33,654 nt of DNA, from positions 1-33,654 of the forward strand of contig JANXMY010000221.1 in NCBI GenBank assembly GCA_025354405.1, written 5' to 3'. Below, piece by piece: positions 2,583 to 29,182 of this stretch. The position numbers and the translations under genes were made by a program. How positions within the stretch are numbered: position 1 is the first letter of the stretch; each line of letters starts with the position of its first letter. The stretch is from Armatimonadota bacterium (lineage in GTDB: Bacteria; Armatimonadota; Armatimonadia; Armatimonadales; Capsulimonadaceae). The notes under the pieces were generated by a model. The model was not told the DNA's origin and made no database searches. It was given only the letters and a program-made list of their open reading frames with translations.

Positions 2583-2620
2583 CGCGCTGCCCCCTCTTAA
2601 AGCATAACTTTTAGTTTACG

Positions 2621-10716: not shown

Positions 10717-11902
10717 AGGCTGGCGAGCTGTTTTCGCCCCGCTCCTTCCGGGCTGCTTCCCGCTCCGCCGTAATCTTTTCGACATAGCCCGAAGCGCGGT
10801 AAGCTGCCATCGGATCGGCGGCGAGGCTGTGGCCGGAGCGCCACTGAGCCAGCAGCGGTTTGACGTCGGTATAGAACGCCGCTCGCAGGCATTCCTCGGC
10901 ATCCACGATGTTACGCTGCGCCTGCGCGTCCTGAAGCTTTGCATGGTCCACCAGGCACGCTTTGGCGTACAGCTCCTGTGCGGTTGTGACGGTCTGGATC
11001 ATGGCTTCAATCTTGGGCTTGAGATTGTGGGACTGATCAATCATGTAAGCGATCTTGGAAACGTCCCGCCCGTGGATCTCTGCGGCGGTGCGGATCTCAT
11101 GGAAGATGCGAAAAACTGCGTAGGGGTCGATGCTGCCGAGCGTCAGATCGTCGTCGGCATACTTGCGGTCGTTGAAATGGAAGCCGCCCAGCATATCCTC
11201 ATCGATCAGCCAGGCGACAATCTGCTCAATATTCGCGCCCGGCAGGTGGTGGCCGGTGTCGACAAGTACTTTCGCACGCGGCCCCGCCTGTTTGGCATAC
11301 AGATAGGCCATGCCCCAGTCAGCAATGTCCGTGGCGTAGAAAGCCGGCTCGAACGGCTTGTATTCCACCAGCATCGTCATCGTTTCGGGCATCGCATCAT
11401 GCCAGGACTTCAGCGCCGCTTCCATGCGCTTTTTGCGCGTGACGATATCGTCCTGCCCCGGATAATTCGTACCGTCCGCCATCCAGAACGACAGCAGGTC
11501 CGAGTGTGTTTCGCGTCCGATACGGAGTGATTCCTGAACGTGGCGATCTGCTTCCGCGCGTGCTTTCGGGTCACTGCTGCAGGCCGAGCCGAACTTGTAA
11601 ACCTGATCCTGAAACAGATTCGGATTAATCGAGCCGATACGGACGCCGTTTCGCCGGGCCATTTCGGCGACCTGTGCCGGGTCGTCACCCGCCTTGAAGT
11701 CCCACAGCACATGGACAGCGACAGAGGGGCAGCAGCCGGTCAGCCGGTGCACCACGCCGGCATCCGCCAGCTTTTCTTCGACCGTCGAGGCCGCTGCCGG
11801 CTGAAGAAACTTGCCAAAACGGGTGCCGGTATCGGCGTACCCCCAGGACGGCGTCTCGATCTGAAAAGCATCCAGCAGTGAAAAAAGTTTCTCTTGTCGC
11901 AT
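10709..11902 (-). CDS. rhaI: L-rhamnose isomerase, RhaI (Pseudomonas stutzeri/Gram-positive) type
   Basis: 397 residues, a TIM-barrel metal-dependent isomerase of the RhaI type rather than the enterobacterial RhaA type. Ligand motifs are present: E180 and K182 in LVEYKPFEP, D215 and H218 in VDTGHHLP, H242 and D250/D252 in HFNDRKYADDDL, and D289 in MIDQSHN. Spacing E-35-D-3-H agrees with what I recall for the P. stutzeri enzyme. It converts L-rhamnose to L-rhamnulose. A strong ribosome site (AAGGAG) sits 5 bases before ATG 11902, the clearest in the operon, suggesting strong independent initiation after lutC. Its end overlaps rhaB. Confidence 0.95.
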   Translation of the reverse strand: MRQEKLFSLLDAFQIETPSWGYADTGTRFGKFLQPAAASTVEEKLADAGVVHRLTGCCPSVAVHVLWDFKAGDDPAQVAEMARRNGVRIGSINPNLFQDQVYKFGSACSSDPKARAEADRHVQESLRIGRETHSDLLSFWMADGTNYPGQDDIVTRKKRMEAALKSWHDAMPETMTMLVEYKPFEPAFYATDIADWGMAYLYAKQAGPRAKVLVDTGHHLPGANIEQIVAWLIDEDMLGGFHFNDRKYADDDLTLGSIDPYAVFRIFHEIRTAAEIHGRDVSKIAYMIDQSHNLKPKIEAMIQTVTTAQELYAKACLVDHAKLQDAQAQRNIVDAEECLRAAFYTDVKPLLAQWRSGHSLAADPMAAYRASGYVEKITAEREAARKERGENSSPAYA

Positions 11903-11936: not shown

Positions 11937-12656
11937 TTAAACGCAGAAGATAGTCAGTCGTTTCGGGCCGTGGGCACCCAGAACGAGAATACGCTCGATG
12001 TCCCCGGTCCGGCTTGGGCCGGTGACAAGCGACATCAGGCTGGGATAGTTTGCCCGGTAGCGCTCCGTCAGCAAGGCGAATGCCGCCGTCAGGTCCGGGA
12101 CAAGCTGCTCCCGCCGTGCCAGCACGACATGATGCGGCGCGAGCGCGGACAGAGTTCGCCCTCCGGCACTGCGGCTGGTAATCAGAACGCTGCCGGTCTG
12201 CGCGACTAAGGCATCGCACTCGGTTAGTGCGGCATCGCAGTGCTCCAGTGCCACAATTTCGTAGCCGTCCTCAATCAGGAGTATCGGCAGCGAAAGTGAA
12301 GCTGCGGCCCCGGTGGTCATCGCCCCAGGATGAGTGGCGATCTGCTGCCAGCCGCAGTCTTTGGCAAGCACCGCCAGGCGCTCCTCCATTTCGGCGACAT
12401 CCGCACACAGAAAAAAATCGGCCCGCAGATCGGCGCACTGCTCAGTAAATAGCTGCATCTGCTCGGCCCAGGCCTCGCCCACTGGAGGCAGCCAGGCCCT
12501 GGCTTCCGGCCGTATGACCGGAAGCGACTTCGCGTACCGATCCGCTGCCGGAGCCGGTTCGTGTGGTGTTCGTTTCGGGGCAGGTACTTGCAGCGCCCTC
12601 CGAATTCGTCCCAGTATCTGTTCACGCCCGCTCGAAATTTGTTCGTTCGCGCTCAT
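11937..12656 (-). CDS. lutC: LutC, LUD-domain subunit of the L-lactate oxidation complex
   Basis: 239 residues with a LUD (YkgG/DUF162) domain over most of its length; the conserved stretch AQTGSVLITSRSAGGRTLSALAPHHVVLA is at about residues 150-180. No Fe-S cysteine cluster, as usual for LutC. ATG 12656 overlaps the lutB stop by 4 bases (ATGA), so the two are translationally coupled. Together with LutA and LutB it forms the non-flavin lactate-oxidising system first defined in Bacillus, converting L-lactate to pyruvate. Followed after 34 bp by rhaI, tying lactate oxidation to rhamnose use. Confidence 0.93.
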   Translation of the reverse strand: MSANEQISSGREQILGRIRRALQVPAPKRTPHEPAPAADRYAKSLPVIRPEARAWLPPVGEAWAEQMQLFTEQCADLRADFFLCADVAEMEERLAVLAKDCGWQQIATHPGAMTTGAAASLSLPILLIEDGYEIVALEHCDAALTECDALVAQTGSVLITSRSAGGRTLSALAPHHVVLARREQLVPDLTAAFALLTERYRANYPSLMSLVTGPSRTGDIERILVLGAHGPKRLTIFCV

Positions 12657-14074
12657 GGTTTCATCTCCTGACGTGAGGCCCAGTAGTCTTTGAAGGTTCG
12701 CGGCTGCACCTCCGGGAAGTTGCGGGACTGGGTCCAGCCGAACAGTGGGTCGATCCGACGGCCATTGATAAGCTGATGCAGGCGCTGAAGAAACGGCGCG
12801 ATGCGCGTCAGCTGACGGTAAAGTTTCGGGCGGGTCATCACAAACGCAAACCCCTGATAGGCTATCTGCTCCAATCTATCCGGCTGGGCTTTTGCGGCAT
12901 TCCGCCGGTTTCGCAGCAGATGGTGGTGCAGATCAATCCCTACCGGACAGGTCTCCGTGCAGGCCCCGCACAGTGTCGAGGCCGCCGACAGATGCTTCCA
13001 CTCCTGCAGGCCCTGTAAATGAGGGGTAATCACCGAGCCGATCGGGCCTTGATAGGTGCTTCCGTAAGAGTGTCCGCCGATATTTCGAAAAACCGGGCAG
13101 ACATTGAGGCAGGCCCCGCACCGAATGCAGTGCAGAGCCTCACGCTGCTCCGGGTCAGCCAAAAGCTCCGTCCGGCCATTATCCAGCAAGATGACGTGGA
13201 ACTCTTCGGGACCATCCACTTCGCCGGGCTGCTTTGGGCCGCCGATCAAGGAGTTGTAACAGGTCAACGCCTGTCCCGTTCCCGCCGTCGCCAGCATCGG
13301 CAGGAACAGGGCCAGATCGGCGAGCTTCGGCAGCACTTTTTCAATGCCCAGCAGAGCGATGTGGATACGCGGCACCGAGGTCGTCAGCCTGGCGTTGCCT
13401 TCGTTCTCCGTAATTGAGATCATGCCGGTGTCAGCGACGGCGAAATTCGCGCCGCTGATACCGACATTCGCGCTCAGATATTTTGCCCGCATCACATCGC
13501 GGGCGATCATGGTCAGCTCTTCCGGGCTGTCCGAGGCCGGGGTCCCCAGCTTTTGCGTGAACGTATCACTGATCTCGCCGCGCGTCAGGTGCATGGCCGG
13601 AAACACCAGATGGTAAGGGGGTTCCTCGCGAAGCTGCACGATATACTCGCCCAGGTCTGACTCCGTGACGCAGTACCCGGCGGCCTCCAGAGCGTGGTTG
13701 AGGTGAATCTCTTCGCTGGTCATCGTCTTGGACTTGATCAGCTCTTTCGCTTCCACGCGTCGGCAGAGATCCAGAATATAAGCACAGGCTTCTTCGCCAG
13801 TCGCGGCCCAGAAGACCTGCGTTCCGCGCGCTTCCGTGTTGCGAACGAACTCTTCCAGATACTGGTCAAGATGGTTCAGCGCTTCCCACTTCGTCTCAGA
13901 GGCGGCCTGGCGTGCCGCCTGCCAGTCCTGAAACCGGCCCTGCGTGCCCCGGCGCACGGCTTCGTATTTGCTCATCGCCGTCTGCACCAGTGTTCGGTGC
14001 CGCAGGTCAAGGCTCATACGCTCGGAATCGTTTTGGAACTGGCTTGTCGGCTTTGTTGGCGTCTTCGTGGACAT
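12653..14074 (-). CDS. lutB: LutB, iron-sulfur LUD-domain subunit of the L-lactate oxidation complex
   Basis: 473 residues, typical LutB length. Residues about 60-300 are the LUD domain (SGANFAVADTGMISITENEGNARL at 207-230). Two ferredoxin-type cysteine motifs follow: CIRCGACLNVCP with C316, C319, C322 and C326, and CGACTETCPVG with C369, C372 and C376. The C-terminal 80 residues match the usual LutB tail. The start ATG 14074 is preceded by AAGTAGGA. It lies 12 bp after lutA and overlaps lutC. Electron-transfer core of the lactate-to-pyruvate system; acts in the cytoplasm or at the membrane face. Nothing is missing compared with the family. Confidence 0.95.
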   Translation of the reverse strand: MSTKTPTKPTSQFQNDSERMSLDLRHRTLVQTAMSKYEAVRRGTQGRFQDWQAARQAASETKWEALNHLDQYLEEFVRNTEARGTQVFWAATGEEACAYILDLCRRVEAKELIKSKTMTSEEIHLNHALEAAGYCVTESDLGEYIVQLREEPPYHLVFPAMHLTRGEISDTFTQKLGTPASDSPEELTMIARDVMRAKYLSANVGISGANFAVADTGMISITENEGNARLTTSVPRIHIALLGIEKVLPKLADLALFLPMLATAGTGQALTCYNSLIGGPKQPGEVDGPEEFHVILLDNGRTELLADPEQREALHCIRCGACLNVCPVFRNIGGHSYGSTYQGPIGSVITPHLQGLQEWKHLSAASTLCGACTETCPVGIDLHHHLLRNRRNAAKAQPDRLEQIAYQGFAFVMTRPKLYRQLTRIAPFLQRLHQLINGRRIDPLFGWTQSRNFPEVQPRTFKDYWASRQEMKP

Positions 14075-14086
14075 AAGTCCTACTTT

Positions 14087-14806
14087 CTACGACGTTCGGG
14101 CTAGCACTTCCGCGAGGTGCAGACTCTTCAGCGGCCTGCGCTGCCGGTCCAGCAGCCCTTGCAGGTGCATCAGGCAGCTTGAATCATTGGAGATGATGTA
14201 CTCCGCACCCGTGGCAAGAGCGGAGGCACACTTGACTTCGCCCATCGCCGTCGAGATCGGGGCGAACTTGACGGCAAATGCGCCGCCAAAGCCGCAGCAG
14301 GTCTGCGCCTCGGTCATTTCAATCAGCGTCAATCCGCGAACCTGAGAGAGCAAAACGCGCGGCTGGCTCTGCACCCCAAGTTCCCGAAGCCCGTGGCATC
14401 CATCATGGAATGTCACCGTCGAAGCGAATTTCGCGCCGACATCGGTGGCTCCCAGCTTGGTCACCAGGAAGTCAGAGAACTCCCAGGTCTTTTCAGCCAG
14501 TGCGAGAGCAGCTTCGTAGTGCGGGGTATCCTGAAATATCTGAGGGTAAAAAACCTTGAGCATCGCGCCGCAGGAGCCGGAGGCGACCACAACGACGTCT
14601 GCATTCTGATAGGCTTTCAAGACTCCCTCCGCAACGGCACGTGCCTGTGGCCAAAACCCGCCGTTCAAAGCAGGCTGCCCGCAGCAGGTCACAGATGGAG
14701 GACACTCTACGGTGTGCCCCAGCCGTTCCAAGACCTCAACCACACTGATGCCTGCGCGTGGGTAGAAGGTGTCGACATAGCAGGGGATAAAAAGTGAAAT
14801 TCGCAT
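14087..14806 (-). CDS. lutA: LutA, CCG-domain subunit of the L-lactate oxidation complex
   Basis: 239 residues from ATG 14806, where the family N-terminus MRISLFIPCYVD begins. A GTG at 14830 would add eight residues not expected in the family. Two CCG (DUF224) domains are visible: C9, C41-C42 in TCCGQPA and C79 in SGSCG; then C137 in FHDGCHG, C170-C171 in TCCGFGG and C211. These ligate Fe-S clusters, as in the glycolate-oxidase GlcF/heterodisulfide-reductase lineage. First gene of the lut-rha operon and divergent from the AraC regulator, so the operon promoter should lie between 14807 and 14944. Confidence 0.94.
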   Translation of the reverse strand: MRISLFIPCYVDTFYPRAGISVVEVLERLGHTVECPPSVTCCGQPALNGGFWPQARAVAEGVLKAYQNADVVVVASGSCGAMLKVFYPQIFQDTPHYEAALALAEKTWEFSDFLVTKLGATDVGAKFASTVTFHDGCHGLRELGVQSQPRVLLSQVRGLTLIEMTEAQTCCGFGGAFAVKFAPISTAMGEVKCASALATGAEYIISNDSSCLMHLQGLLDRQRRPLKSLHLAEVLARTS

Positions 14807-14852
14807 AAGAGGTGTCTTGATCCGTCGCACGAGAGCGTTTCTTGAAATATGC

Positions 14853-14944: not shown

Positions 14945-15850
14945 ATGAAGCAACTCTACCGATACCTGCCTCTGGGCGACGAGATCCTCACTCGCAGCCT
15001 GTACGTTATTGCGGGAGGGAATGCCTACCTGCCGCCAGGCGCTTCTTATCCACCCTCCAGTCACCCGCAGCATCACCAGTTCCACTGGAGTGAGGGCCGC
15101 GTCCTCCAGGAATACCAGTTAATCTATATCGCCCGAGGCTCCGGCCAATTGGAGTCGACTTCGGGCGGGCTGCGGCAGGTCAGGGCAGGAGATCTGATCG
15201 CGTTATTTCCGCATGAATGGCACCGCTATCGTCCCGACCCGGAGATCGGCTGGGAAGAGCACTGGGTCGCCTTTCAGGGAAAAGGAGCCGCGGAGTTTAT
15301 GGCGGAGCATTCCGCCTCGCCGAAAGTCCCTTTGTTCTGTACCGGCATCAATGATTCGCTGCTGAGAGAGTTTGTGCGGATTGCGGAGGAGGTGGCCGAA
15401 GAGGCGGTCGGGTACCAGAACGTCGTCGTGGCAAGCCTTCATCTCATTCTCGCACTCGCGATGGTGTCCCACCAGCGCCTGAGCTTTCAGGCGACCGACG
15501 TTTTGGGGATTATCAAGCGCACGAAGGATCTGTTGATGGAGCGGATCGATCGACCCACCGATATGAACGATCTCGCGGCGGACCTGCGTGTGGGCTATCC
15601 GTGGCTTCGCAAGATGTTTCGCCAGCACACCGGGCTTCCTCTGGCGCAGTACCAGACGCAGCTGCGCCTCTACCAGGCCTGTGAGTTTCTGCGGAATACA
15701 ACGCTCCCCATCGCGGCGATCGGCGGCCGCTGCGGGTTCGAGTCGGCCTACTATTTCGCGCGAGTTTTCCGTGGCAAGATTGGCTGTACTCCAAGCGAAT
15801 ATCGGCTTCAGTCGCGAAAATCACTCCCGGCAATTGAAGAGGCAGCGTGA
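14945..15850 (+). CDS. AraC-family transcriptional regulator, candidate rhamnose regulator
   Basis: 301 residues. Residues about 25-140 are a cupin-type sensor (YQLIYIARGSGQLES, AGDLIALFPHEWHRY, WEEHWVAFQGKG), and residues about 205-292 are the double helix-turn-helix of AraC/XylS (DLAADLRVGYPWLRKMFRQ..., then IAAIGGRCGFESAYYFARVFRGKIGCTPSEYR). It is divergent from lutA and ends 8 bp from the convergent GH78 gene, so it sits between the two rhamnose operons and is the natural candidate activator of one or both, with L-rhamnose or a derivative as inducer. The start at ATG 14945 lacks a clear ribosome site. Regulatory role inferred from position. Confidence 0.92.
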   Translation: MKQLYRYLPLGDEILTRSLYVIAGGNAYLPPGASYPPSSHPQHHQFHWSEGRVLQEYQLIYIARGSGQLESTSGGLRQVRAGDLIALFPHEWHRYRPDPEIGWEEHWVAFQGKGAAEFMAEHSASPKVPLFCTGINDSLLREFVRIAEEVAEEAVGYQNVVVASLHLILALAMVSHQRLSFQATDVLGIIKRTKDLLMERIDRPTDMNDLAADLRVGYPWLRKMFRQHTGLPLAQYQTQLRLYQACEFLRNTTLPIAAIGGRCGFESAYYFARVFRGKIGCTPSEYRLQSRKSLPAIEEAA

Positions 15851-15858: not shown

Positions 15859-17505
15859 TCAGCTCTTGACCAGGCGCACGCCATCGGGCAGTTCGAGGTC
15901 AGTTTTCACTTTCCCATCCGCACCAATCTCGTGGGAGACCTGAATGATACCGTGGGGGGTCGGAAATGTCCCACGCGCATAGGTCAGGCCAGCCAGGTGA
16001 GGAGTTACCGTGACAGTGGCGAAGCCCGGTGAGGCCGGGGCAATTCCGAGCACATGCTCCATCAGCCAGGCGGTCGGGCCGGCAGCCCAGCCGTGGCAGA
16101 GGCTGTGCCGCAGCCCTTCATAGCAATATCCCCCAAAGTCGGCGTGGATATCGCGCTGGCCCGGCGGCACCAATTCATCGATTCGGGCACTGTTCTCCAT
16201 CCAGTCGACTTCAAAGCCCTCCCAGAATGTCGTTGCCCCCATATCCAGCATCCCGCCCCAGTAGGTCCGCAGCAGGTCAAGGCAGCCCGCATAGTCCCCG
16301 GCAAGCGCCCTGGCCTGGAGGACGTAGTAGCCGTAGAATGTCGACAGCCCGCGATAGGGGTCCTGGGCGAGAATGTCGCGATTGACGGCGTTTGCCTCCG
16401 CCATGCCTGCCATCGCCATCAGGGCATTGGCCTGCTTGCTGGAGCTCGCCGGACGCCCAAAGCCTGCCGCACGCTGCGCCGCGGAGAGGGCAAGGGCAGA
16501 AGCCGCCGGGTCCGAAAGCACGGAGCAAAGCTCAGCGCCCGCCTGCAGTGCCAGCACGACGAGGGCCTGGAGGCCTGCGTCGATCGCCGCCGGATCCCCG
16601 CTTGTCGGCCATTCCAGAAAACGCATGCCGTCCAGATGCTCTTGTCCCGCGGCATCTACCTTCGAATCGATCAGCGCCAGCAGGCCAGTCAGATATACCT
16701 GCTGCTCCTGGAGATACGACAGGTCGCCCTGGTACCGATACCAATCGCGCTGGATCAGCAGCCACCAGAGCGAGTAAGAGGAGATGCCGTTCATCCATTC
16801 GGGTAAGGGCGAGCGCTCGCGCTGGTAGTCCAGCGTTGCGGGGACAATCGGGTGGCCGCCGAAGACCGACGCGATGACCATCGTCTCCGGATGCAGGTCG
16901 CCAATCCAGACCAGGCGGTCGCGCTTGATACCGTCCCAGACATATTCCTGCATGCACAGATGCACGGTCCGCGCCCCGGTCTGCCAGATTTCATTCAGGC
17001 GCGTATCACTGCATTCGAACGTGCCAAGATGTTCCAGCGGCCGCTGAAGCGACACGGCGCGTACCGCGACTAAGTGCAGAAGAGTATCCGCGGGGAAATC
17101 CAGCCGCACGAACCGAAACCCGGTGTTGCCGACTTCCTGAGTCCCCAGCGGGACCAGTGGAAACACAAGGTCATGATTAGCATGGTCTCCGTTCGGCTCT
17201 CCCATCGCTTCGCTGACCGATTCGCCGAATCGGATACGAACCTCCACGACGCTCCGGCTCGCCGGACCGACCACGATCTGCACACCGCCATTGAGCTCCT
17301 GACCGAAATCCAGCAGCAGGCTGCTTCTCTGGTCGGTGCGGGGAATTGTGCAGTAAGGATGCGATTCGAGCGGCGCCTGCCCGGTGTCACTTGTGAGCAA
17401 GAAGCTGCTCTCCAGCGGGGCAGCGTCGCCGGTGGTCTGCCAGACGATACGTGTTGGGAGCAGAAATTCGCGTTGGCGCGGGTCGACTTGTGAGTTTTGT
17501 GTCAT
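15859..17505 (-). CDS. Cytoplasmic GH78-type alpha-L-rhamnosidase (short form)
   Basis: 548 residues without signal peptide. A short beta-sandwich (about 60-155, LLLDFGQELNGGV) precedes the (alpha/alpha)6 barrel starting near 160 (GTFECSDTRLNEIWQTGARTVHLC). The catalytic motif is WDGIKRDRLVWIGD at 190-203, giving D191, D196 and D203. The spacing 0/+5/+12 matches the Bacillus GL1 RhaB layout as I recall it, but Asp stands where Glu acts as acid. E429 in TTFWEGF is the likely second catalytic acid. Shorter than typical GH78, lacking the N-terminal lectin-like modules. Last gene of the operon starting at 23282, 16 bp after the DUF6785 membrane gene, which suggests it cleaves rhamnosides that protein imports. 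Confidence 0.85.
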   Translation of the reverse strand: MTQNSQVDPRQREFLLPTRIVWQTTGDAAPLESSFLLTSDTGQAPLESHPYCTIPRTDQRSSLLLDFGQELNGGVQIVVGPASRSVVEVRIRFGESVSEAMGEPNGDHANHDLVFPLVPLGTQEVGNTGFRFVRLDFPADTLLHLVAVRAVSLQRPLEHLGTFECSDTRLNEIWQTGARTVHLCMQEYVWDGIKRDRLVWIGDLHPETMVIASVFGGHPIVPATLDYQRERSPLPEWMNGISSYSLWWLLIQRDWYRYQGDLSYLQEQQVYLTGLLALIDSKVDAAGQEHLDGMRFLEWPTSGDPAAIDAGLQALVVLALQAGAELCSVLSDPAASALALSAAQRAAGFGRPASSSKQANALMAMAGMAEANAVNRDILAQDPYRGLSTFYGYYVLQARALAGDYAGCLDLLRTYWGGMLDMGATTFWEGFEVDWMENSARIDELVPPGQRDIHADFGGYCYEGLRHSLCHGWAAGPTAWLMEHVLGIAPASPGFATVTVTPHLAGLTYARGTFPTPHGIIQVSHEIGADGKVKTDLELPDGVRLVKS

Positions 17506-17521
17506 GGAGTATTGCCTTCAG

Positions 17522-19528
17522 TCAGGTTGAGAACGTACGGAATAAGTTCAGATGCAGAGCCACACCGACCAGGCTCCAGATCGAGCCGGTCACAAAGTCG
17601 CCGAGGATCAGGCCCAGGAACAGCGGCAGCATCTGCCGGTAGACCTTGATGCCGCCATACCGCAGCAAAAGCGATTTGCAGGCCCAGGCAATCAGCATGT
17701 CCAGCCAGAACAGGTCGTTCGCCCAGGATGTGTTCAGCACATAGCCGGTCGGCGACAGGGGAAAAGAAACGAACCGTGCTCGCATCAAGGCCAGAGCTCC
17801 GGTCATTGCCGCCCCCGCAATCATGCCGAAGACGGCAGAGTGGTCAGGTGCTTTGGGGTGCTGGAGCCATTTCTGTACACTTTCCCAGGGCGCGGACCCT
17901 TCCGAGACGCGCCACTGGTTGACGTGACCGGTGGCTGCCCCATTGACGTAGTAAAGCTGCAGGTCCCAGAGCAGGGCAAAAACCAGAGCGATCAGGGCCG
18001 CTACCATCAGCGCCGCCGGTACGCCACGCATCGATCCGCCTGCCCTTTTCTGTCCGACAAACGCTTGAAGCTGGTGCGGCAGGGACGCCGCCCGGTAGTC
18101 GCTATTGAACCAGGAGAGCATTCCCAGGTGAACTTTGTCCATGATGCCGAAGTTGGTCGTCCCCCCGACGGTCGTCAGGATACTCTGCGGGTCGATCCAG
18201 GCGAGATAAGGCGATAGGACCGCCGTCTCCGCCTGCAGCCGCGACAGGGCCAGCAGGATTACGACGTAAATACCCAGGAAGGCGAGGGGCAGCCAGAACG
18301 AACCGCCAGACGACCAGACAAAAGCGCAGAGAGCGAGGAAGCCGCCGAGAAAGCCCAGAACAGCCATGCGGGCGCTCATCGGCTCAGCACGTTCCTGCCC
18401 CTCCGGGTCGCCGCGCAGCGCCCGCTGGAAATAGCTTTGGAAGTAACTCCGGCCCTGCCAGAGAACGGCGAGACCCAGTGCGAGCCAGGCACCCCAAGCT
18501 TGATACGAAGTGTAGGGGAATTGCGCAGCGCCGTCGCCAAACTGCCCTCCCCCGGCGCTGTTGCGCCAATCTTCGGTGACAGCCCAGAAGTTAAATGCTT
18601 TGCGCACGAAGTAAAAGAACCAGAGCGAAAAGAGGACATCGGTATTGATCAGGTAACCAAATCCGATTCCCGCCGCATGGATGCCACCGAACATCGGGTC
18701 GAGTGCATTCAGCGGGAACGGCAGACCGCCGGTCATATCACGCGCTGAATTGATCGGGAAGCTTGGGACACTGGGGTAGATACTGGCGAGCGAGTTGATC
18801 GAATGCGAAAGGAACGGAAAAGCAAAGCCGATCCAGAGGAGCTTGTTGCGGTAGATCGGAGCCCCTTCGCGCGTCATCTCCAGCGGCAGGGCTATCACGG
18901 GAAACGGCAGGTGCTCTTCTTCGGCCCAGCGCCGCCGCACGATCACGGCAAGGCACAGGGTCGTCCAAAGGAGAACAAGGAAAAATGCGCCCCAGACGGA
19001 CAACGGCAAAGCCCAGGCCTGCATGATATGCGGCTGGAAGAAGGTCGAGTTCCCCTGATAAAAGCCCTTCAGTACCGCCGGGTCGCGCGGCCCAATGTAG
19101 GACGGCAGCAGATGCCAAAGCTCACGCCAGCCGTTGTTGTTGTTATCGTAGTAAAAGGGGTTGGACAGAAATGGCAGGAAAAACCCCATGTTTCCGACAC
19201 CCGCGACGACACTGGAAATAGACAAAAGCGAATACAGCAGCATCAGCTCGGCCTGGTTCAAGGCGGCGCGTACCCCTGCGAGCCGTCTCACCAGCAAGTT
19301 GATCAGAGTGATGAGGAACAGCAGAAATGTCACCCCAAGAAAGAGCGTTGAGATAGTGATCTCAGTCACGCCGGTCTTCATCTCGGAGTTTGCGATCCAC
19401 CCCGTGTTGAGTGCGATCAGCGGCAGGGCGACCAAGGCGACCGGCAGCCAGCGGACTGTTTTCAGCACGGATTCAGAATTTCCACTCTCCGCTTGTTCGG
19501 CATTTTGCGTTTGTATTTGTGTGCTCAT
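17522..19528 (-). CDS. Polytopic membrane protein, DUF6785/DUF6784-like, candidate rhamnoside transporter
   Basis: 668 residues with about 13 hydrophobic segments, the first at 27-46 after a polar cytoplasmic leader and the last near the C-terminus. Conserved-looking stretches include QAELMLLYSLLSISSVVAGVGNMGF (92-116), AEEEHLPFPVIALPLEM after TM4, and SRLQAETAVLSPYLAWIDPQS with FGIMDKVHLGMLSWFN. These resemble the DUF6785/DUF6784 proteins, which look distantly like OPT-type transporters; the assignment is from memory and unverified. No ATP-binding or phosphotransferase motif. It is sandwiched between secreted and cytoplasmic genes of a rhamnosidase operon, 6 bp after the upstream gene and 16 bp before the downstream GH78. 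No other sugar permease occurs in the window, so import of rhamnose or rhamno-oligosaccharide is the leading hypothesis. Confidence 0.75.
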   Translation of the reverse strand: MSTQIQTQNAEQAESGNSESVLKTVRWLPVALVALPLIALNTGWIANSEMKTGVTEITISTLFLGVTFLLFLITLINLLVRRLAGVRAALNQAELMLLYSLLSISSVVAGVGNMGFFLPFLSNPFYYDNNNNGWRELWHLLPSYIGPRDPAVLKGFYQGNSTFFQPHIMQAWALPLSVWGAFFLVLLWTTLCLAVIVRRRWAEEEHLPFPVIALPLEMTREGAPIYRNKLLWIGFAFPFLSHSINSLASIYPSVPSFPINSARDMTGGLPFPLNALDPMFGGIHAAGIGFGYLINTDVLFSLWFFYFVRKAFNFWAVTEDWRNSAGGGQFGDGAAQFPYTSYQAWGAWLALGLAVLWQGRSYFQSYFQRALRGDPEGQERAEPMSARMAVLGFLGGFLALCAFVWSSGGSFWLPLAFLGIYVVILLALSRLQAETAVLSPYLAWIDPQSILTTVGGTTNFGIMDKVHLGMLSWFNSDYRAASLPHQLQAFVGQKRAGGSMRGVPAALMVAALIALVFALLWDLQLYYVNGAATGHVNQWRVSEGSAPWESVQKWLQHPKAPDHSAVFGMIAGAAMTGALALMRARFVSFPLSPTGYVLNTSWANDLFWLDMLIAWACKSLLLRYGGIKVYRQMLPLFLGLILGDFVTGSIWSLVGVALHLNLFRTFST

Positions 19529-19534
19529 GAAAAT

Positions 19535-20842
19535 TTACTTCGAAGGCGCTTTGGCTGGGGCAGTTTCACGCCTTCCAGCGCGAAGGCTGGCGGAAGAAAC
19601 CGTCAGCACCTGGCTTGCCTGCCCCTGCGGGGCGGACGGCCATAAGCTGAACCGAATTTCAGGCCGTTTGTCATGCACCCTGGCAGAGCTGCGGCGTTCC
19701 ACCACGGCTTGAATCCGGCGGCTCGCGCCTGGCCACAAGCGCAGGTCCCGCACAAAGGGCAGTCCCGCGGCGCCGGCCATCTGCGCGGTCACATCCTTGC
19801 CATTACAGAGAAAACGGACGTTCCACCCATGGTGTGGATCGACGACTTTCGCGGACAGCGTCGGGCAGAGGTCCAGCCACTGGCTGCGATTTGACACAGT
19901 GACGGTCTGTCCCCCTGAGCTAACATCGGCGGCGGCCCGCAGATGCACCGCGTGATCCGGGTCTTTGAGATGGTGTATTAGCCAGTAGGCCATGCCGGTA
20001 ATCGTGTCGGCGGGAAGCCCGCCCACCGCTTCTGGCAGTGTCGGGGTCGTCGTCGCGTACTCGAAGACAATCCAGATATCCGGCCTTGCCCCAGTATCCT
20101 CGTGCTGACGAACACACTGCTGAGCGACTTTGAGCCACTGCGCGGTTGGTTTGAGGTCGTAAGGGGAGACCATGACCGCTGCGATCTTGTGCAGGGAGTG
20201 TGTATATTTGACGATGGAAAAGCTGCCACTTCGCATTCCCCCCTGGTCGGCTTGCCACAGGCTGAGCGGTCCGTCGGTCGAAGCGCCGTCCGTGCGGGCG
20301 GTGTCTTTGCGTACCCGGACATTGTCGCCGATGTTCTTCAGGATGTCGCCATCGTAGAGCCAGGGGCCGTTCTGCGCCAGGCAGGGACGGGTCGCAGGGG
20401 CGGTCAGCCCGAGGTGCTTCAAGTCGCTCAGCTTGAGGTCGCTGACTCCGTAGTTCAGACTGGAGTAGGAGACGCGAAAGCCGCCATTCAGCAGCGCGAA
20501 TAGCTGCCGGGACTGAAGATCCCGGCTGAACTGACCACCGTCCGGGAACCCGCCCAGCCCGGTATCGCGAGAGTCGGACTCGTAATAAGCGCTTTTATGA
20601 GTGAACAGGGAAGAGGTCAGCGCGCATTTTTTGGCGCTCGGATTAAGCATCTGAATGAAGTTGACATAGAAACCATCTGCGTGGGCACGCACATAGGTCC
20701 ATTGATTTGGGTTCGCATTCATCGCGTCCCAGCCATTTGCAGAGCCGACATAAACCTGCTGCGCCAAGGCAAGCGGAGGTGCGCCCGCGCTGAGGGCGGT
20801 CAGGGCGAGAACGGCAGAGAGCGGAGCGCATAAGTTTCGCAT
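19535..20842 (-). CDS. Secreted protein of unknown function in the rhamnosidase operon
   Basis: 435 residues from ATG 20842, which begins a clear Sec signal peptide (MRNLCAPLSAVLALTALSAG, cleavage probably after ALAQ). The frame continues upstream to 21046, but that part shadows the preceding GH78 gene. I do not recognise the family. The body contains aromatic-rich segments (NQWTYVRAHADGFYVNFIQML, PWLYDGDILKNIGDNVRV, PDIWIVFEYATTTPTLPE) reminiscent of a TIM-barrel glycosidase-like fold, followed by a beta-rich C-terminal domain (about 325-415) resembling a sandwich module. No catalytic pair can be assigned. It is 52 bp after the secreted GH78 gene and 6 bp before the DUF6785 gene, so it probably helps process or bind the same substrate outside the cytoplasm. 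Confidence 0.8.
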   Translation of the reverse strand: MRNLCAPLSAVLALTALSAGAPPLALAQQVYVGSANGWDAMNANPNQWTYVRAHADGFYVNFIQMLNPSAKKCALTSSLFTHKSAYYESDSRDTGLGGFPDGGQFSRDLQSRQLFALLNGGFRVSYSSLNYGVSDLKLSDLKHLGLTAPATRPCLAQNGPWLYDGDILKNIGDNVRVRKDTARTDGASTDGPLSLWQADQGGMRSGSFSIVKYTHSLHKIAAVMVSPYDLKPTAQWLKVAQQCVRQHEDTGARPDIWIVFEYATTTPTLPEAVGGLPADTITGMAYWLIHHLKDPDHAVHLRAAADVSSGGQTVTVSNRSQWLDLCPTLSAKVVDPHHGWNVRFLCNGKDVTAQMAGAAGLPFVRDLRLWPGASRRIQAVVERRSSARVHDKRPEIRFSLWPSAPQGQASQVLTVSSASLRAGRRETAPAKAPSK

Positions 20843-20894
20843 GCTAGGAGTGTCTTTCTTTATCACTATTTGGAGGCAGGGGTGGTTTCCCCTC

Positions 20895-23282
20895 TTACTT
20901 TGCCGCATTAATATCGATGCTGCTTTTGAGCTGGTAGACACCCGCTTTGGCCAAATGCACATACGAGAGATCGCCAGACCGGCGAACGAGGGGATACGGG
21001 CGGCCGTTGACGAAAATGGCGCGGCCGGGCAGTCCGATCTGGGCATCGACGCCGGGGGGCAGCCCCACTGTCACAGCCTGACCGCCAGCTGCCCTGGACG
21101 CCCGCACACGAATTAACCCCTGCGGGGCCGGTACTGCACCATCGATCCACTTGAGGTCGCCCAGAAACGGCACGATCTCCACCGTCTTCATGCCGCCGCT
21201 GGTGGACCGGACGCCGAGGACGTATTCCGACAGGAAGCTGGTCGGGCCGGTGGACCAGCCATGACAAAAGCTCAGGTAGGGCGTCATATCCAGCACCCGG
21301 TTCATCTCGGTCGGCATGGCGGGGTCAAACTGCTCCCAGAGGGTCGTCGTCCCGCGCGCCATCATTGCCCCCCAGCAGCGGCGGATCAGGTCCAGTCCAT
21401 CCTGCTGCCGCCCCAAGTCGCCGAAGGCCCGCAGAACATAGCTGCCGTAGTAGGGCGACATTGGATACGCCGCCGTGTTTGCCGCGGAGGCTGGCGGCGT
21501 CCAAACTGGGCTGCCCGCCCGCAGAATACGCGTGTAAATCGCCTGCCGCTGCGCGGGTGTCGCGACGCCCGAATAGATCGCCATGACGTTTGTTTGCAGG
21601 CGGTCCCCGTAAGTCGCCGTCACCGCATCGGGATAGTTTTGACGTGCCGCATCGGTCAGCGTCTTGCCCCAGGCCTCGTACTTGTTTGCGTTCGCCGTAT
21701 CGCCGAGTGTCCGGAGCAGGAACACTGCCTCGTGGATGCCCTTGATGTCGAACAGGTCAACCGCCATGTGCGACTGCGGGCTGTCTTGGACAAAGTCCGG
21801 CGCCCAGTCTACAAAGTTCCAGTCATGATGGGGATTGATGAACAGATGGGCGGCGTCGAATTCCTCGTGCTGGTACGCCAGCAGCGCCAGAATATTCCCC
21901 CGCTGGCTCCTGAGAAACTCCTTGTCACCATCACAGCGGTAGAAGTCAGCAAGTTCGCAGAACCAGGACGAGGTATAGCCCGGAAGCGTGTTGATATCCC
22001 CGGTCGCTAAAGCGGGGTTATATGCCCCACCGGGGGCGGTCTTCGGCAGCCCGGCAATAGAGCGCTCCATCAGGAACCTATCGGCAAAAACGTCGTTGAT
22101 CGTTGCCCCGGTTACGTGCAGGTCGCCGCCCCAAAGACCTCGGTCACGCTTGGGTGCATCCCAGATATCTTCCTGCATGCACAGGTGTGCGGTATACGCC
22201 CCGCTGTACCATATCTTCGTCAGGAGCGGGTCTGAGCAGTCGAACGCTCCTTTGTAGACCACGGGGTAGTACTTATGGTCGCATTCCACCCGGGTCAGCG
22301 TGGCGGCATGACGGGATGGAAACACAAGCAGGGCGTAACGGAACGCGCTGTAAGGCGTGGTGGCCGGGCTGCCGGCGGTGAGGGTCAGGTTGTAGGGCCC
22401 GCTGTTGTCTAATGCCGGCTCCACATGGGTCAGCTCGGCGATCGTCTCCCCCGTCGTCACCCGCATTGTCGTTCCCGGTGTGCCCTGCAGAACGAGGCGT
22501 CCGGCGATTTCTTTTCCAAAATCAATCCGCAGAGACGCCGGGACTTCGCTCTCAGAGACGGCATTTACCGAGATGTGTCTCGCCGAAAGCAGGGCGCCGC
22601 TGGTCTGCCCGGAAAGAACTGCAATCGCGATCGGGTGTACTGTGAGGTGCGCGAGGTACCAGGCATTCGCATCCATCCCGGGCCAGTTGACCAGGTTTGT
22701 ACCCCAGGGTCCGCGTCCTGCCGGGGCGATGGTCGTCGCATTCCTCCAGTGGGAGTCATCAAATGCCGCGCCGGCCCACGCCCCCGGCGGAGAAGCGGAG
22801 GCGAGCACTTTCCAGTGGGATCCGCTTCGCAAAACCGTCTTGCCATTGACGTCCAGCTGTGCCAGAATACCCGCTGCCCCGCCGCTGTTGACACCTTGTA
22901 TCGCGACACTATTTATCCCGGCATGCAGCAGCGAGGTGACCGATTCCTTCTGCACTTGCTTCCACCCATTCTCCGCCATATTCGTCGAGACGACTTTGTG
23001 GCCATTGACAAAGACGGTGACGGCATCGTCGCCCGTCACAAACAGCGCAGCCGAACTTGGCGCGGTGCTGAGCGTGACCAAGCCTCGGGCACTGACAGTC
23101 TGAGTATCTTGTGTCTTCTCGACCCAGATCCACTGGGCAGGCACCGTTGCCTCCAGCGGGGCCTGAAGCCGAGAGGGTGGAAAGCCATAGGTCGGGTCAA
23201 CCGTGGGAGGCTTGGCGGCGACAGCACCCTCGGTGACAGTTAGCAGAGAGAGGAAAGAAAGCAGCAGGAATCGTTTCAGCAT
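20895..23282 (-). CDS. Secreted GH78-type alpha-L-rhamnosidase
   Basis: 795 residues with a Sec signal peptide (MLKRFLLLSFLSLLTVTEGA, cut near AVAA). Residues about 48-210 are a jelly-roll lectin-like domain (AQWIWVEK, DDAVTVFVNGHKV, FDDSHWRNAT) and 225-345 a second sandwich. From about 345 the six-hairpin barrel begins (GAFDCSDPLLTKIWYSGAYTAHLC). The catalytic motif WDAPKRDRGLWGGD is at 374-387 (D375, D380, D387), one residue shorter than the canonical DCPQR.ER form and with Asp at the acid position; E650 in TTTLWEQF is the likely partner. The C-terminus (700-790) is the usual closing sandwich. First gene of the four-gene operon driven by the promoter at 23336-23364. Confidence 0.88.
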   Translation of the reverse strand: MLKRFLLLSFLSLLTVTEGAVAAKPPTVDPTYGFPPSRLQAPLEATVPAQWIWVEKTQDTQTVSARGLVTLSTAPSSAALFVTGDDAVTVFVNGHKVVSTNMAENGWKQVQKESVTSLLHAGINSVAIQGVNSGGAAGILAQLDVNGKTVLRSGSHWKVLASASPPGAWAGAAFDDSHWRNATTIAPAGRGPWGTNLVNWPGMDANAWYLAHLTVHPIAIAVLSGQTSGALLSARHISVNAVSESEVPASLRIDFGKEIAGRLVLQGTPGTTMRVTTGETIAELTHVEPALDNSGPYNLTLTAGSPATTPYSAFRYALLVFPSRHAATLTRVECDHKYYPVVYKGAFDCSDPLLTKIWYSGAYTAHLCMQEDIWDAPKRDRGLWGGDLHVTGATINDVFADRFLMERSIAGLPKTAPGGAYNPALATGDINTLPGYTSSWFCELADFYRCDGDKEFLRSQRGNILALLAYQHEEFDAAHLFINPHHDWNFVDWAPDFVQDSPQSHMAVDLFDIKGIHEAVFLLRTLGDTANANKYEAWGKTLTDAARQNYPDAVTATYGDRLQTNVMAIYSGVATPAQRQAIYTRILRAGSPVWTPPASAANTAAYPMSPYYGSYVLRAFGDLGRQQDGLDLIRRCWGAMMARGTTTLWEQFDPAMPTEMNRVLDMTPYLSFCHGWSTGPTSFLSEYVLGVRSTSGGMKTVEIVPFLGDLKWIDGAVPAPQGLIRVRASRAAGGQAVTVGLPPGVDAQIGLPGRAIFVNGRPYPLVRRSGDLSYVHLAKAGVYQLKSSIDINAAK

Positions 23283-23306
23283 AGTAGGAGAAGGCCTTCA
23301 CACAAG

Positions 23307-23329
23307 ATTGGTAAATCCGATTAACCAAT
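23307..23329. promoter_or_regulatory. 23-bp near-perfect palindromic operator at the transcription start
   Basis: Left half ATTGGTAAATC and right half GATTAACCAAT flank a central C (23318); 10 of 11 base pairs match, the only mismatch being at the sixth position from each end. It begins 6 bp downstream of the -10 box, so it covers the expected start point, where a bound repressor would block transcription. The symmetry suits a dimeric LacI- or GntR-type repressor; no such regulator is encoded in this window. Confidence 0.75.
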
Positions 23330-23335
23330 TGAAGT

Positions 23336-23364
23336 ATTATAGTAGTTTTGCCTTTCTCTGTCAA
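23336..23364 (-). promoter_or_regulatory. Consensus sigma-70-type promoter of the GH78-transporter operon
   Basis: On the minus strand TTGACA (23364-23359) and TATAAT (23341-23336) are separated by exactly 17 bp, a full match to consensus at both boxes. The start should fall near 23329, giving a leader of about 47 nt before ATG 23282. This is the strongest promoter seen in the window. It lies in the 164-bp gap between the GH78 gene and the GH99-like gene upstream, and its paired palindrome implies negative control. Confidence 0.88.
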
Positions 23365-23446
23365 TACCTATTCTCTCTCCAATCAGAATCGAGGGCCAAT
23401 CTCGCAAATCGGAGCTGATGCTGCTAACCTGACGGTTCGGCAGATA

Positions 23447-25645
23447 TCAGCGCAGATTGGCGCGGTAGCTGAAGCGGCCATCGGGGGCAGCGTCGCCATT
23501 CAGGGTGAAGTCGCTGGCATCGCCCCGTACATAGCAGTTGTCGGCCCACTTGAAGTCGAGCGTGGCAGCGCCGGCCTTGATCCCAAGCAGGGCACGCGGA
23601 ATTGTCACCATCATCTCCGTGCCGCGCTGGGAGCAGCGTACACTTCCAGCAGACTGCCACGCATAGCTGCCACCGACGTTTTTTTCCAGGCTCGTGATCT
23701 TTGCCCCTGCATGTCGGTTGAGCACAAAATCGTAGCCTAGCCAGCCCGTCTTCGCGTCGGCGTCGGTGTTGATGTAGAGCAGCATCCAATTCGGGTCGGT
23801 GTGGGGGGTCATCTTCGCTGCGGTACGAGCGTAGAAATAGACGTTCTTCGTATCGAAGCTCACTTTCGCCGCCACGATATCGTTCCGGCCGGTTTGGTTA
23901 CGATAGTGCGCATTCCCCCAGCCGGGATGGTCACGGTGAACGGGGTCACCGATTGCGTCGCGGTATTCGGGGGTGACAGTCTGCCACTGCGCCAGAGTCG
24001 TGATCGTCCGTGCCTGAAGGGGTGGCACCGGGCGCACGCCCTTGTATCGGCGGACATAATCGACGAACTGGTAGTAGTAATCATCCTGGAGACGCCCCTG
24101 CTCGGGCTCGATATCGCGGCTGAACTCCTCGTTGTACTCGTCCACGAAGATCGCTCCGCCTTTGGCGTGCGGCTTGCCGGCGAACGTGGGGCTGTCGTCG
24201 GTATAGTGGCCCGCCGTCCACTCGTTCCAGCCGGTGACGAAGATCAGCTCCGGATCAACCTTGAGTGCGTAGTCGAACTGCTGGGCAAAGCAGAGGCCTT
24301 TCTCGGTGTCGGGGGTGATGCGCAGCTCATTGACGGGCGGCTGTTTCTGCATGAGTGAGCTGCGCCCGATGCTTGTCGTGGCATGCTGGGCGGCTTCGAC
24401 GGCGATCTCCTCCGGCTTCTTCGGGTCTTCGTGCCAGCCGTAGTTCTGGGGGTAGTTATCCAGCCAGGGCCACGCGTCATGCCCATTGCCGAACCACCCG
24501 GTCGGTCCCCAAGATGCTGTCCAGGCCCATGACCCGCGAATGGCAAAGAAGCGCGTAATGTTATCCGGCAGTGTCTTGCCTTGATCCAGAGGCGCGACCA
24601 TCATCAGCGGCTTGCCTTTCCACTGGAACCACAGGTCGGGGAAGAAGTTTTGCGAGTAGAAGTTCGTCCAGAGCGTGTTCTCGGCCCCGTGTCCGGTGAA
24701 GAAGGCGATCTGCGGCGCTTTGTCGCCCTCAGACTTCATCTGCTCCAGTACCCGACAGATATTCAGGTACACGTCTGGATATGTCGGCCCATTCGTATTG
24801 TCGAAGACGATCACGTCTACGCCCGCATTGGCGAGCATCTCCATGTGGGTACGGATCACCGAGGGGTCGTCAGACTGGTAGTAGCCTAACCAAGGCTGGC
24901 TCCACCAGTGCGGGGAGTTGACCGGGCCATACTGCGGGTCAAGGGGATTTGCCGCGAGGAGTTGAGTGTTGTCGTAAACAGGGACATTCCGGACATGGTT
25001 CGCCAGAAAATAGAAGACGGCGACGGTCTTATTGGCACGCGGCGGACCGATCTTAGTCGCGGTGGAGACGGCACGCCCCAGACCGTCGGTGGCGACCCAG
25101 GTATCACTATAGATATCGCGCACGGGAATCGGCCTCGCTGCCGTGAGCGGGCCGAAATCCGACAGACCGACATCGATGATCTGCGGCCCGGCGACATTAT
25201 GGCAGTGCACGGCGAGCGTGTGCCGCCCCGGCAGCAGCAGCCCTTTCGCGCCGAAGGAGAATGGAGTCAGATCGTAGCTGCTGGTCGCACCGGGCACGGT
25301 CGCCGCCAGCTTCCCGTCGATATACACCTCAGCATCGTCGTCATGGAGAACGTTAAGATAGGGGTGGGCAAAAAGCTTTGTGAGGGTAAACGTCTGCCGG
25401 AGCCAGATGTCGTCAGCGGTCCATTCCGTGCGGACACCCCCGATCCCGTGTCCGAAGGGCGCCGGGGCCGCCTGCCAGCCGGCGTCACGGAAGCCAGGCT
25501 GCTGCCAGCCCTCAGCGGGGGCGGTCGTTGTATAGCGCCAGGTTTGGGGCGTCGTCTCCGAAGTCGGCACGTCCTGAGCGAAAGTTGGAACTCCGGCCAG
25601 CAGCAGGAGAAAGAGCGCAAGTAGGAATGAGTGGTGTTTATTCAA
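23447..25645 (-). CDS. Secreted GH71/GH99-like multidomain protein with C-terminal carbohydrate-binding module
   Basis: 732 residues starting at TTG 25645, chosen because a complete signal peptide begins there (MNKHHSFLLALFLLLLAGVP, cut near TFAQ). An AG-rich AAGAAG lies just upstream. Residues about 30-170 are a galactose-binding-like sandwich (DDDAEVYIDGKLAATV). Residues about 190-565 are a TIM barrel resembling GH71/GH99-like proteins: PWLGYYQSDDPSVIRTHMEMLANAGVDVIVFDNTNG, later DPELIFVTGWNEW with the final-strand WNEW motif. Residues about 590-732 look like a CBM9/DOMON-type module (VSFDTKNVYFYART, LLYINTDADAKTGWLGYDF). Exact activity unknown; GH99 members cleave endo-alpha-mannosidic bonds, but this context suggests a plant-type glycan. 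It follows the long GH78 gene by 35 bp and is probably cotranscribed. Confidence 0.75.
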   Translation of the reverse strand: MNKHHSFLLALFLLLLAGVPTFAQDVPTSETTPQTWRYTTTAPAEGWQQPGFRDAGWQAAPAPFGHGIGGVRTEWTADDIWLRQTFTLTKLFAHPYLNVLHDDDAEVYIDGKLAATVPGATSSYDLTPFSFGAKGLLLPGRHTLAVHCHNVAGPQIIDVGLSDFGPLTAARPIPVRDIYSDTWVATDGLGRAVSTATKIGPPRANKTVAVFYFLANHVRNVPVYDNTQLLAANPLDPQYGPVNSPHWWSQPWLGYYQSDDPSVIRTHMEMLANAGVDVIVFDNTNGPTYPDVYLNICRVLEQMKSEGDKAPQIAFFTGHGAENTLWTNFYSQNFFPDLWFQWKGKPLMMVAPLDQGKTLPDNITRFFAIRGSWAWTASWGPTGWFGNGHDAWPWLDNYPQNYGWHEDPKKPEEIAVEAAQHATTSIGRSSLMQKQPPVNELRITPDTEKGLCFAQQFDYALKVDPELIFVTGWNEWTAGHYTDDSPTFAGKPHAKGGAIFVDEYNEEFSRDIEPEQGRLQDDYYYQFVDYVRRYKGVRPVPPLQARTITTLAQWQTVTPEYRDAIGDPVHRDHPGWGNAHYRNQTGRNDIVAAKVSFDTKNVYFYARTAAKMTPHTDPNWMLLYINTDADAKTGWLGYDFVLNRHAGAKITSLEKNVGGSYAWQSAGSVRCSQRGTEMMVTIPRALLGIKAGAATLDFKWADNCYVRGDASDFTLNGDAAPDGRFSYRANLR

Positions 25646-25680
25646 AGTTTCTTCTTTTCAGCGTCACGTCAATGACTTCT

Positions 25681-28600
25681 TCACAAATGGACTGCAGTCG
25701 GAGGCCGCCACAACGACGTAAAGTGGTAGTGGCCTGAGCCGACGAGAAACGTTGCCGCCTCCCCATCCATGCCCAGAGACGGAACACCCTGCCGGCCGTT
25801 GATGCCCTGTCCTTCCGTCACGCCCTGACGGGAAGCGGCGGGCACGTAGATAAGAGCCTTGGTATTGACTGGCACGTCCACGTCCAGCACTAGGCCTGTG
25901 CTTCCCAATTGCCAGTGGGTCTTGATCGTCCCATAAACGCTCTCATAAGAGGCGCTGGCAGAGTGCAGATCTGCCCCTCCGGGCCGCGGCTGTATGATGA
26001 ACCGTTTGTAGCCAGGATGGTTTGGATCGGGGGCGATACCGCCGATTGTCCGATACAGCCATTCGCCGCAGGAACCTAAAGCGCAATGGTTCAGCGAGTA
26101 AGCACCGTTTGGGAAGGAGCCGTCCGGAGCGATGACATCCCAGGTCTCCCAGATGGTGGTTGTTTTATGCGACATCATGTAGCCCCAGGATGGCTGCGTG
26201 GTCTGTTCCAGCACCGCATACGCGAGATCGAGCCGGCCGATTTGAGTCAGGGTCGGCAGCAGCCACTGAGTCCCGACAAACCCGGTCGTGAGATGGTTCT
26301 GATGCCGCGTTACGTTAGCCACCAGCTTGTCACCTGCGGACTTGATCAGCATATCCGGCACCAGCCCGATATGCAGTGCCATGACATACGAAGTCTGACT
26401 GCCGCTGCCGACTGTGCCGTCGGGCTGAACAAACTTTGCGATGAAGGCCCTCTTGATGCCGCCGAATAGCGCTTCGTATTTGCGCGCGTCTTCAGCATGC
26501 CCCAGCACGGCTGCCATTTCAGCAAGCTGCTTGGTATCATAGGCAAAGTAGGCTGTCGCAATCAAATCCCCTGGCGTTCCCTCGCCGGCGTTTTTCCAGT
26601 CCTCCGGTGCCGAGACGCTCCCCTTCGTAATCAGCCCCGGACTCTGCGACTGTAAAAAGCTGATCCATTTCCCCATGCCGACATAAGCCGTGCGGACTAT
26701 ATCGGTGTCCCCATAGCTCTGCCACAGTACGAACGGCATGTTGACGCCGACATCGCCCCAGCCACCCCCCGTGCCGCCGGAGTCGCCCGAATACCAGGCG
26801 GGAGCGACATTGGAAAATTGGCCGTCTGTCAGCATGTCGCGCTCCCATTTGCCGTAGAACGCGGCCATATCGAAGTTGAACGCGGCGGTCTGAACGTAAA
26901 AATTGGCGTCTCCGGTCCAGCCAAGGCGTTCGGTACGCTGCGGGCAGTCCATCGGAGCGGACATGTAGGCATCGCGCCCCGACCATTGAAGGTCCGATTG
27001 GAGCTGATTGAGAAATGCGCTGGACGTATGGAAACTACCGATATGCGGAACATCCGTACCGTAGACCACCCCGGTGATGTCGCTCAGCGCAGGCTCCGAA
27101 ACCGCGCCACGGACCTCGACATACTGGAAGCCGTGGAACGTGAACTCCGGCTGGAACACGGCGGCTCCCGATGCGCCGAACGTATAATGGTCTATCGCGT
27201 CGGCATGGGCTCCCGCAATTCCCGGCGTATCCAGCGTGATCAGATTGAGCGTGCCGTCCGTGTTCAGCAGCTCGCCCTGGCGGACGGTAATTGTCGTTCC
27301 CGTTCGGCCGTGAACCCGGACCCGGGCGACACCGGTGATGTCCTGCGGCAGCTTGTAAATGTAGACGCCGGGCTGAGGCTGTGTCACCGACTCAGCGGCG
27401 AGTGTCTGCGTCGCACGGATCGGCGGGTCCATCTGCGCGACTATTTGGATCCGTTTTGGCAGGACAATCGCGGCGGCAGGCCGCCAGGAGGTGTCGTGAA
27501 GCCCGGCCTGATCCCAGCCGGGATGCTCCAAACGCGCATCATACGTTTCACCGTCCATATTGTCGGCATGCACGACCGGCCCGGAAGCATACTCCCACGA
27601 GCCATCGCTGGCGACTATCTGCGTTGTGCCATCGTCGAACTGAACATGCAGCTCCGCGAAAAGTGCCGGACTATCGCTCCCGTAGTTGTTCGGCCCAAAC
27701 CAGGCGACATTGCCGCAGTACCAGCCCGGCGCAAGCTGAACACCGAGAGCATTGCCGCCGCGCCTCAGCAGTCCGGTGACATCGTAGCACTGGTACTGGA
27801 CACGGCGGTAGTAATTTGTCCAGCCGGGGGCGTAGAAACGGTCCCCTACCCGTTTGCCATTGAGGGACGCCGCATAAATACCAAGCGCAGACGCGTAGAG
27901 CCAGGCCCGGCGCACCGGCTTTGCCAGCGTGAATTCGTGACGCAGCATGGGGGTTCGCAGTCCGCCGGTCCCCAGCATGGAATCGGTGCTGGACACGGTC
28001 AGCCCATTCGGGCCGAGTTTCCCGGCGCTGAACAGGGAAGGGAGATTGGCGGCAAAATCGTCTTTGAACAGTGCTTTTCCCGCGGGATCGGTGACTTTCA
28101 GACTGCGGAACGTCGTCGTTTCCGAAGAGGAATCGCGAAACCCGATAGTTCCCTCAGTCAGTGTTTTGTCGACAGTCGTATCGATCAGGTGCCCATCAAT
28201 GTAAGTCGTGATCGTGCTGCCGGATGCCGTGATGCGCAGCACATGCGGCTGCTGAAAGTCGGTATTGGTGTAGCCATATCCCAGGGGAATGTTTTTCAGC
28301 ACCTGATACCCGCCATTGACCCGCAGGTGCGGGCGGAATATCGGCTGGGAGCCGGCCGTGTTGATCTGCCACATGTAGGCGTCGCCCGGACCATGCGCCC
28401 GGAAATAGACCGTCACGGCTTCGTGCTGAATGGTAAAGGACGTTTCGAGTGTAAAGTCCCGCAAACGCAGCTCCTGCTCTGCTGCTTTGATCCATTTCGC
28501 CTTCCATTCTGCCGGGGACAGAACCCCCATCGTCCAGAATGCCGGTGCACTCCATGCGGAAGGCCGTCCCGCCTGATCCCAAATACGAACTCGCCAGAAG

Positions 28601-28980: not shown

Positions 28981-29054
28981 AGTTTGTAGGGGCTTCCCAA
29001 ATTAGTGCCGGTGAAGAGGCTTGAGACAAAAAAGCCTGAGTCAAAAGAAGCGTG

Positions 29055-29095
29055 GGAGTAAACTCCTGCGCTGTAGGGGCGCTGCTTGCTGCGCC
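29055..29095. repeat. Paired small palindromes in the GH95-GH78 gap (REP-like)
   Basis: The 202-bp gap 28981-29182 holds GGAGT-aa-ACTCC (29055-29066) followed by GGCGC-tgcttgct-GCGCC (29078-29095), the latter with additional inner GC pairs. The second unit resembles GC-rich REP-type intergenic elements. Nearby, AGGCTT and AAGCCT also pair (about 29018-29036) but without a terminator T-run. No promoter was convincing here. Confidence 0.45.
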
Positions 29096-29182
29096 TGCCA
29101 AGTTTTGCCCTCCAACTTTCAGTCCAGGCTTTGAGAGAGCCGAATATTTATGCAGCAAAGCCGTTTGCAGGTAACAGTTTTA

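Follow-up and report, generated by a model that had tools for sequence, protein, structure and literature searches.

Barley HvYS1, an OPT/YSL protein, is described as a proton-driven symporter that forms a dimer and works in an elevator-like manner (PMC9691689). The known cargo of OPT/YSL proteins comprises metal-phytosiderophores, glutathione, folates and peptides, and a sugar is reported as an OPT substrate in neither of the two papers (PMC9691689, PMC12687453). Proteins with the domains DUF6785 and DUF6784 were named in no paper found in our PMC literature search. One such protein is encoded in the window analysed here, i.e. the 33,654-nucleotide stretch from position 1 to 33,654 of contig JANXMY010000221.1 of an Armatimonadota bacterium (GCA_025354405.1).

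The open reading frame at 17522–19528 on the minus strand encodes 668 aa and is covered nearly end to end by two Pfam domains. PF20581 (DUF6785) matched aa 30–530 (17939–19441, minus strand; E=2.8e-119) with 399 bits against a cut-off of 25, and PF20580 (DUF6784) matched aa 567–662 (17543–17830, minus strand; E=7.2e-33) with 113 bits against a cut-off of 26.4. Both domains were present in all 61 aligned homologues. The protein is polytopic by hydropathy, and the AlphaFold2 model agrees. The open reading frame is real, and its product is a candidate transporter of the OPT fold with a link to a rhamnosidase locus.

The AlphaFold2 model, for which 58 homologues from public genomes were used, had a pLDDT of 91 and a pTM of 0.92. 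When it was compared with 350,542 PDB chains in Foldseek, the barley YS1 structures 7wst and 7wsr were the only matches at E≤0.001, with an E value of 3.5e-8, a probability of 1.00 and TM-scores of 0.64 (query) and 0.70 (target). The OPT fold is built from a YS core and a scaffold, with inverted repeats; the match concerns the overall fold, which is shared over most of the chain. Because no other PDB structure matched at this threshold, the protein as predicted is OPT-like at the level of the whole fold. In sequence, the distance from HvYS1 and the YSL proteins is large: identity was 12–13%, there was no PF03169 (OPT) match in the window protein, and no metal-chelate genes were recognised nearby. 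PF03169 matched one of the 61 homologues (E 1.5e-4). An hhalign comparison, made with one Armatimonadota OPT sequence only, was not significant, and PDB sequence searches with the single sequence and with a profile found no relative of the window protein. The first-pass annotation had described the product as DUF6785-like and as OPT-like. The full-length domain matches bear out the former, and the latter holds at the fold level. Mechanism and direction of transport are taken by analogy from YS1.

The gene is part of a same-strand run at 15859–32215 (minus strand). The order is a GH95 enzyme with a Laminin_G domain (29183–32215), a full-length GH78 alpha-L-rhamnosidase (25681–28980), a weakly GH99-like enzyme (23447–25645), a GH78-like enzyme (20895–23282), a secreted 435-aa protein (19535–20842), the DUF6785 protein and a second GH78-like enzyme without signal peptide (15859–17505). 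The GH78, the GH99-like enzyme and the upstream GH78-like enzyme have signal-like N-termini; "secreted" here means a hydrophobic signal-like N-terminus judged by eye, without a signal-peptide predictor. The open reading frame of the 435-aa protein begins at 21046, with an ATG and a signal-like N-terminus at 20842. This protein had no Pfam match and no homologue among the fetched loci. The DUF6785 gene follows it after 6 bp and precedes the signal-less GH78-like gene by 16 bp. Hence, the earlier placement of the membrane protein directly between secreted and cytoplasmic GH78 partners was right on the downstream side; upstream, the 435-aa protein intervenes, and the secreted GH78-like enzyme is one gene further away. 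The DUF6785 protein was also said to be the sole multi-pass product of the operon, and indeed no other polytopic protein was found in the run.

An inverted repeat lies upstream of the GH95 gene (32466–32573; 36 nt, 89% complementary, arms 36 nt apart). The GH99-like enzyme adjoins DUF6785 in four other loci as well (L138, L252, L270 and L272).

On the other side of the operon, an AraC-family regulator (14945–15850, plus strand) is convergent with the operon and divergent from a set of lactate and rhamnose genes on the minus strand. These are LutA/LutB/LutC-type lactate oxidation genes (11937–14830), the L-rhamnose isomerase RhaI (10709–11902; TIGR02635, 502 bits, under its cut-off of 531), a rhamnulokinase-like RhaB (9187–10944; TIGR02627, 471 bits, under its cut-off of 528; true start later than the start of the open reading frame) and a bifunctional RhaD aldolase/dehydrogenase (7004–9760; NF006189, 1081 bits, cut-off 634). 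The RhaD match begins at aa 195, and the start is probably later. A GH106 gene (3872–6973) and a GH43 gene (754–1680) follow on the plus strand. Between these two, a divergent pair at 1689–3775 consists of a LysR regulator and a membrane protein of PF03601 (conserved hypothetical 698). The latter gene (2657–3775, plus strand) represents a second membrane family in the window and is outside the operon.

The signal-less GH78-like partner was compared with 24 sampled orthologues. About 22 of the 24 had no hydrophobic N-terminus, and two did (L265 and L269). Most of them start shortly before a conserved DPR.R.F..PTR.VW motif. The partner motif DGIKRDRLVWIGD carries Asp, and the corresponding stretch of the classical GH78 on contig C229 of this genome reads DCPQRDERLGWMGD with Glu. 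We take the Glu of this motif to be the GH78 catalytic acid. The Asp variant occurs in both GH78-like proteins of the operon (DGIKRDR in 15859–17505 and DAPKRDR in 20895–23282) and is kept in ~24 orthologues of the first. The best PDB match of the signal-less enzyme, 3cih, has the same variant. As Asp replaces the Glu of classical GH78, the partner is only a putative glycosidase, and this weighs against the reading favoured below.

According to the first-pass annotation, there was no RhaT, ABC, MFS or SusCD-type transporter, and the DUF6785 protein was left as the rhamnose importer by elimination. The scan of the window proteins indeed turned up none of these. Genome-wide (3.6 Mb, 233 contigs, 96% complete), the statement fails: a RhaT on C229 (C229:588–1727; L033:561–1727) passed the equivalog model NF010024 with 481 bits (cut-off 468). 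Upstream of it, in the same orientation and ~370 bp away, is a gene for a large secreted GH78; the two together occupy L033:561–5114. With this RhaT, the elimination argument falls. A rhamnose transporter elsewhere in the genome had been named as evidence against the proposal if regulated with the operon. Only half of this evidence is at hand: the transporter is present; as to regulation, no shared 9-mers above shuffles were found in the upstream regions of the operon, the lut/rha genes, RhaT and a DUF6785 operon on contig C53. RhaT (PF06379, NF010024) belongs to a family unrelated to DUF6785 and would serve the same catabolic pathway.

Other sugar carriers were also considered in this genome. 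A search for a RhaS-type ABC binding protein gave two generic matches far below the cut-off. The single SSF gene (C175:9961), an alternative as a sugar symporter, has an N-terminus that presumably resembles that of an ActP-type permease. Viral contigs were looked for, and none was found. The C229 RhaT gives free rhamnose its own uptake route in this organism. With such a route in place, glycosides on which the signal-less GH78-like enzyme might act become the more probable cargo of the DUF6785 protein, and rhamnosyl or mixed oligosaccharides are likelier than free rhamnose.

In the tree, the window protein has its nearest relative (70% identity, sister with a support of 1.0) at locus L252 in G002, a 7.6-Mb single-contig genome of another genus in the same bacterial family. 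This locus encodes a GH99-like enzyme (43% identity), the DUF6785 protein, a signal-less GH78-like enzyme (61%), two GH43-like enzymes and a GH106 (68% identity over 343 aa to the GH106 of the window). The module is thus present in a second genus.

To count linkage, 40 loci that carry homologues of the window's GH78-like enzymes were sampled. DUF6785 was found within two genes of a GH78-like gene in four of them (L252, L270, L272 and L283; 0.44 expected), and as its immediate neighbour in three (0.22 expected). The Poisson P of ~0.001 is a rough estimate: copy numbers come from first-look counts, genes occur in clusters, and two of the loci, L270 and L272, hold sister copies from one genome. 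A GH99-like enzyme is present in L270 and L272, and a GH106 in L272. In the tree, the copies at L270 and L272 form one DUF6785 lineage and the copy at L283 another, both distinct from the window clade, so the association with GH78-like genes arose about three times.

Other counts weigh against the reading favoured below. No DUF6785 gene was found nearby in 34 of the 40 loci, and only two of ~10 members of the window clade adjoin a GH78. In the sister species G005, no DUF6785 of the window type turned up, and no copy of the GH78-like partner either. Elsewhere in the window clade, the neighbouring genes encode an arabinofuranosidase of GH51 type, regulators of the LacI and ROK kinds and a YdjC protein. 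Further DUF6785 copies adjoin GH95, GH127, GH29, GH26 and GH130 genes. When near and far neighbours were pooled and compared by Pfam, no clear carbohydrate enrichment was seen among the 25 families listed, with carbohydrate genes in both pools. Linkage of DUF6785 to rhamnosidase or rhamnose-catabolism genes was conserved at L252 (GH78-like, GH99-like and GH106) and recurrent in two other lineages; it was missing from most members of the window clade and from all but one of 60 rhamnulokinase loci sampled in the phylum. The neighbours of the individual copies are in line with a family of transporters whose sugar cargo differs from lineage to lineage, but the pooled comparison adds no clear signal.

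The family is widespread in Armatimonadota. DUF6785 was detected in 151 of 201 sampled genomes, often in more than 10 copies and with up to ~48 candidates per genome in first-look counts. A classical OPT was found in one of the 201. DUF6785 was located within ~10 kb of just one of the 60 rhamnulokinase loci; roughly three would be expected from the mean density of 2.5 DUF6785 copies per Mb, meaning that the linkage is no more than chance.

In Poribacteria, a homocysteine S-methyltransferase/MTHFR gene is near DUF6785 in a cluster of 18 loci, often 26–60 bp upstream. At other Poribacterial loci, a DAO oxidoreductase or a URO-D gene is beside it. A homocysteine S-methyltransferase/MTHFR fusion directly upstream of DUF6785 was seen at L047, L049, L050 and other loci. 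The methyl-transfer neighbours suggest a different cargo for the Poribacterial copies. Because of this, the distribution and the single rhamnulokinase locus, DUF6785 cannot be called a rhamnose family in general, and a family-wide assignment to rhamnose has to be dropped.

The reading we favour is that the protein is an OPT-superfamily glycoside importer whose cargo differs between lineages and which serves a rhamnoside module here. We give it somewhat less than an even chance of being correct. The DUF6785 protein would be a secondary transporter in the inner membrane that belongs to the OPT/YSL superfamily and, if it resembles barley YS1, is probably a proton-coupled homodimer of the elevator type. 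The secreted GH78, GH95 and GH99-like enzymes would release short glycosides or oligosaccharides from a polymer rich in rhamnose and arabinose (pectin-like), and these products would be its most likely cargo. After import, the cytoplasmic GH78-like enzyme would cleave them, and RhaI, RhaB and RhaD-ADH could then use the freed rhamnose. Of the original proposal of an importer of rhamnose or rhamnosides, the tie of the cargo to GH78, GH106 and GH99-like enzymes is retained through L252 and the recurrent linkage; the elimination argument and the extension of rhamnose to the whole family are not.

The cargo could also be unrelated to the operon, i.e. a metal chelate, a peptide or another small molecule, with no rhamnoside role for the protein. 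The described OPT/YSL substrates are of this kind (PMC9691689, PMC12687453), and the Poribacterial loci with their methyltransferase, DAO and URO-D genes also point this way. Several Armatimonadota lineages are, however, recurrently linked to glycosidases and sugar regulators, and we consider this explanation unlikely. Free L-rhamnose as the cargo, the narrower form of the first-pass proposal, with the DUF6785 protein as a second permease besides RhaT, is a little more improbable again. It draws on the presence of RhaI, RhaB and RhaD-ADH in the window and on a paralogue on C53 (L006:5454–9905) that heads an operon of DUF6785, a rhamnulokinase-like kinase (TIGR02627, 469 bits) and a class II aldolase. 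This operon is kept in G005 (L118; 92, 82 and 89% identity), where no RhaT match was found. However, the C53 paralogue is 32% identical to the window copy, and its link to rhamnulokinase comes from another subfamily. The genome also has its RhaT above the equivalog cut-off, and the proximity of DUF6785 to rhamnulokinase loci in the phylum does not exceed chance.

The least probable alternative, to which we give a small chance, is that another sugar of the same polymer is imported, as arabinosyl, fucosyl or uronosyl rather than rhamnosyl fragments. Copies of the window clade and others adjoin GH51, GH127, GH29, GH95 and UxaC genes, and L252 is rich in GH43-like genes. Against it, the signal-less GH78-like enzyme accompanies both copies of the window clade that share this module. 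On balance, import of a glycoside is the best-supported reading, and import of free rhamnose is less likely.

How Armatimonadota take up the sugars of plant polymers is poorly known. Rhamnulokinase-type kinases were found in 154 of the 201 genomes but RhaT in only 25. The window and L252 loci offer a concrete pair of transporter and intracellular enzyme for testing. A broader generalisation is possible, if doubtful: DUF6785/DUF6784 may be a hugely expanded, previously unassigned bacterial OPT branch that imports glycosides or oligosaccharides at least in Armatimonadota, with the window copy specific for rhamnosides and among the first sugar-importing proteins of the OPT fold. If true, a very expanded family of membrane proteins in Armatimonadota would gain a function, and the OPT fold would be extended to sugars.
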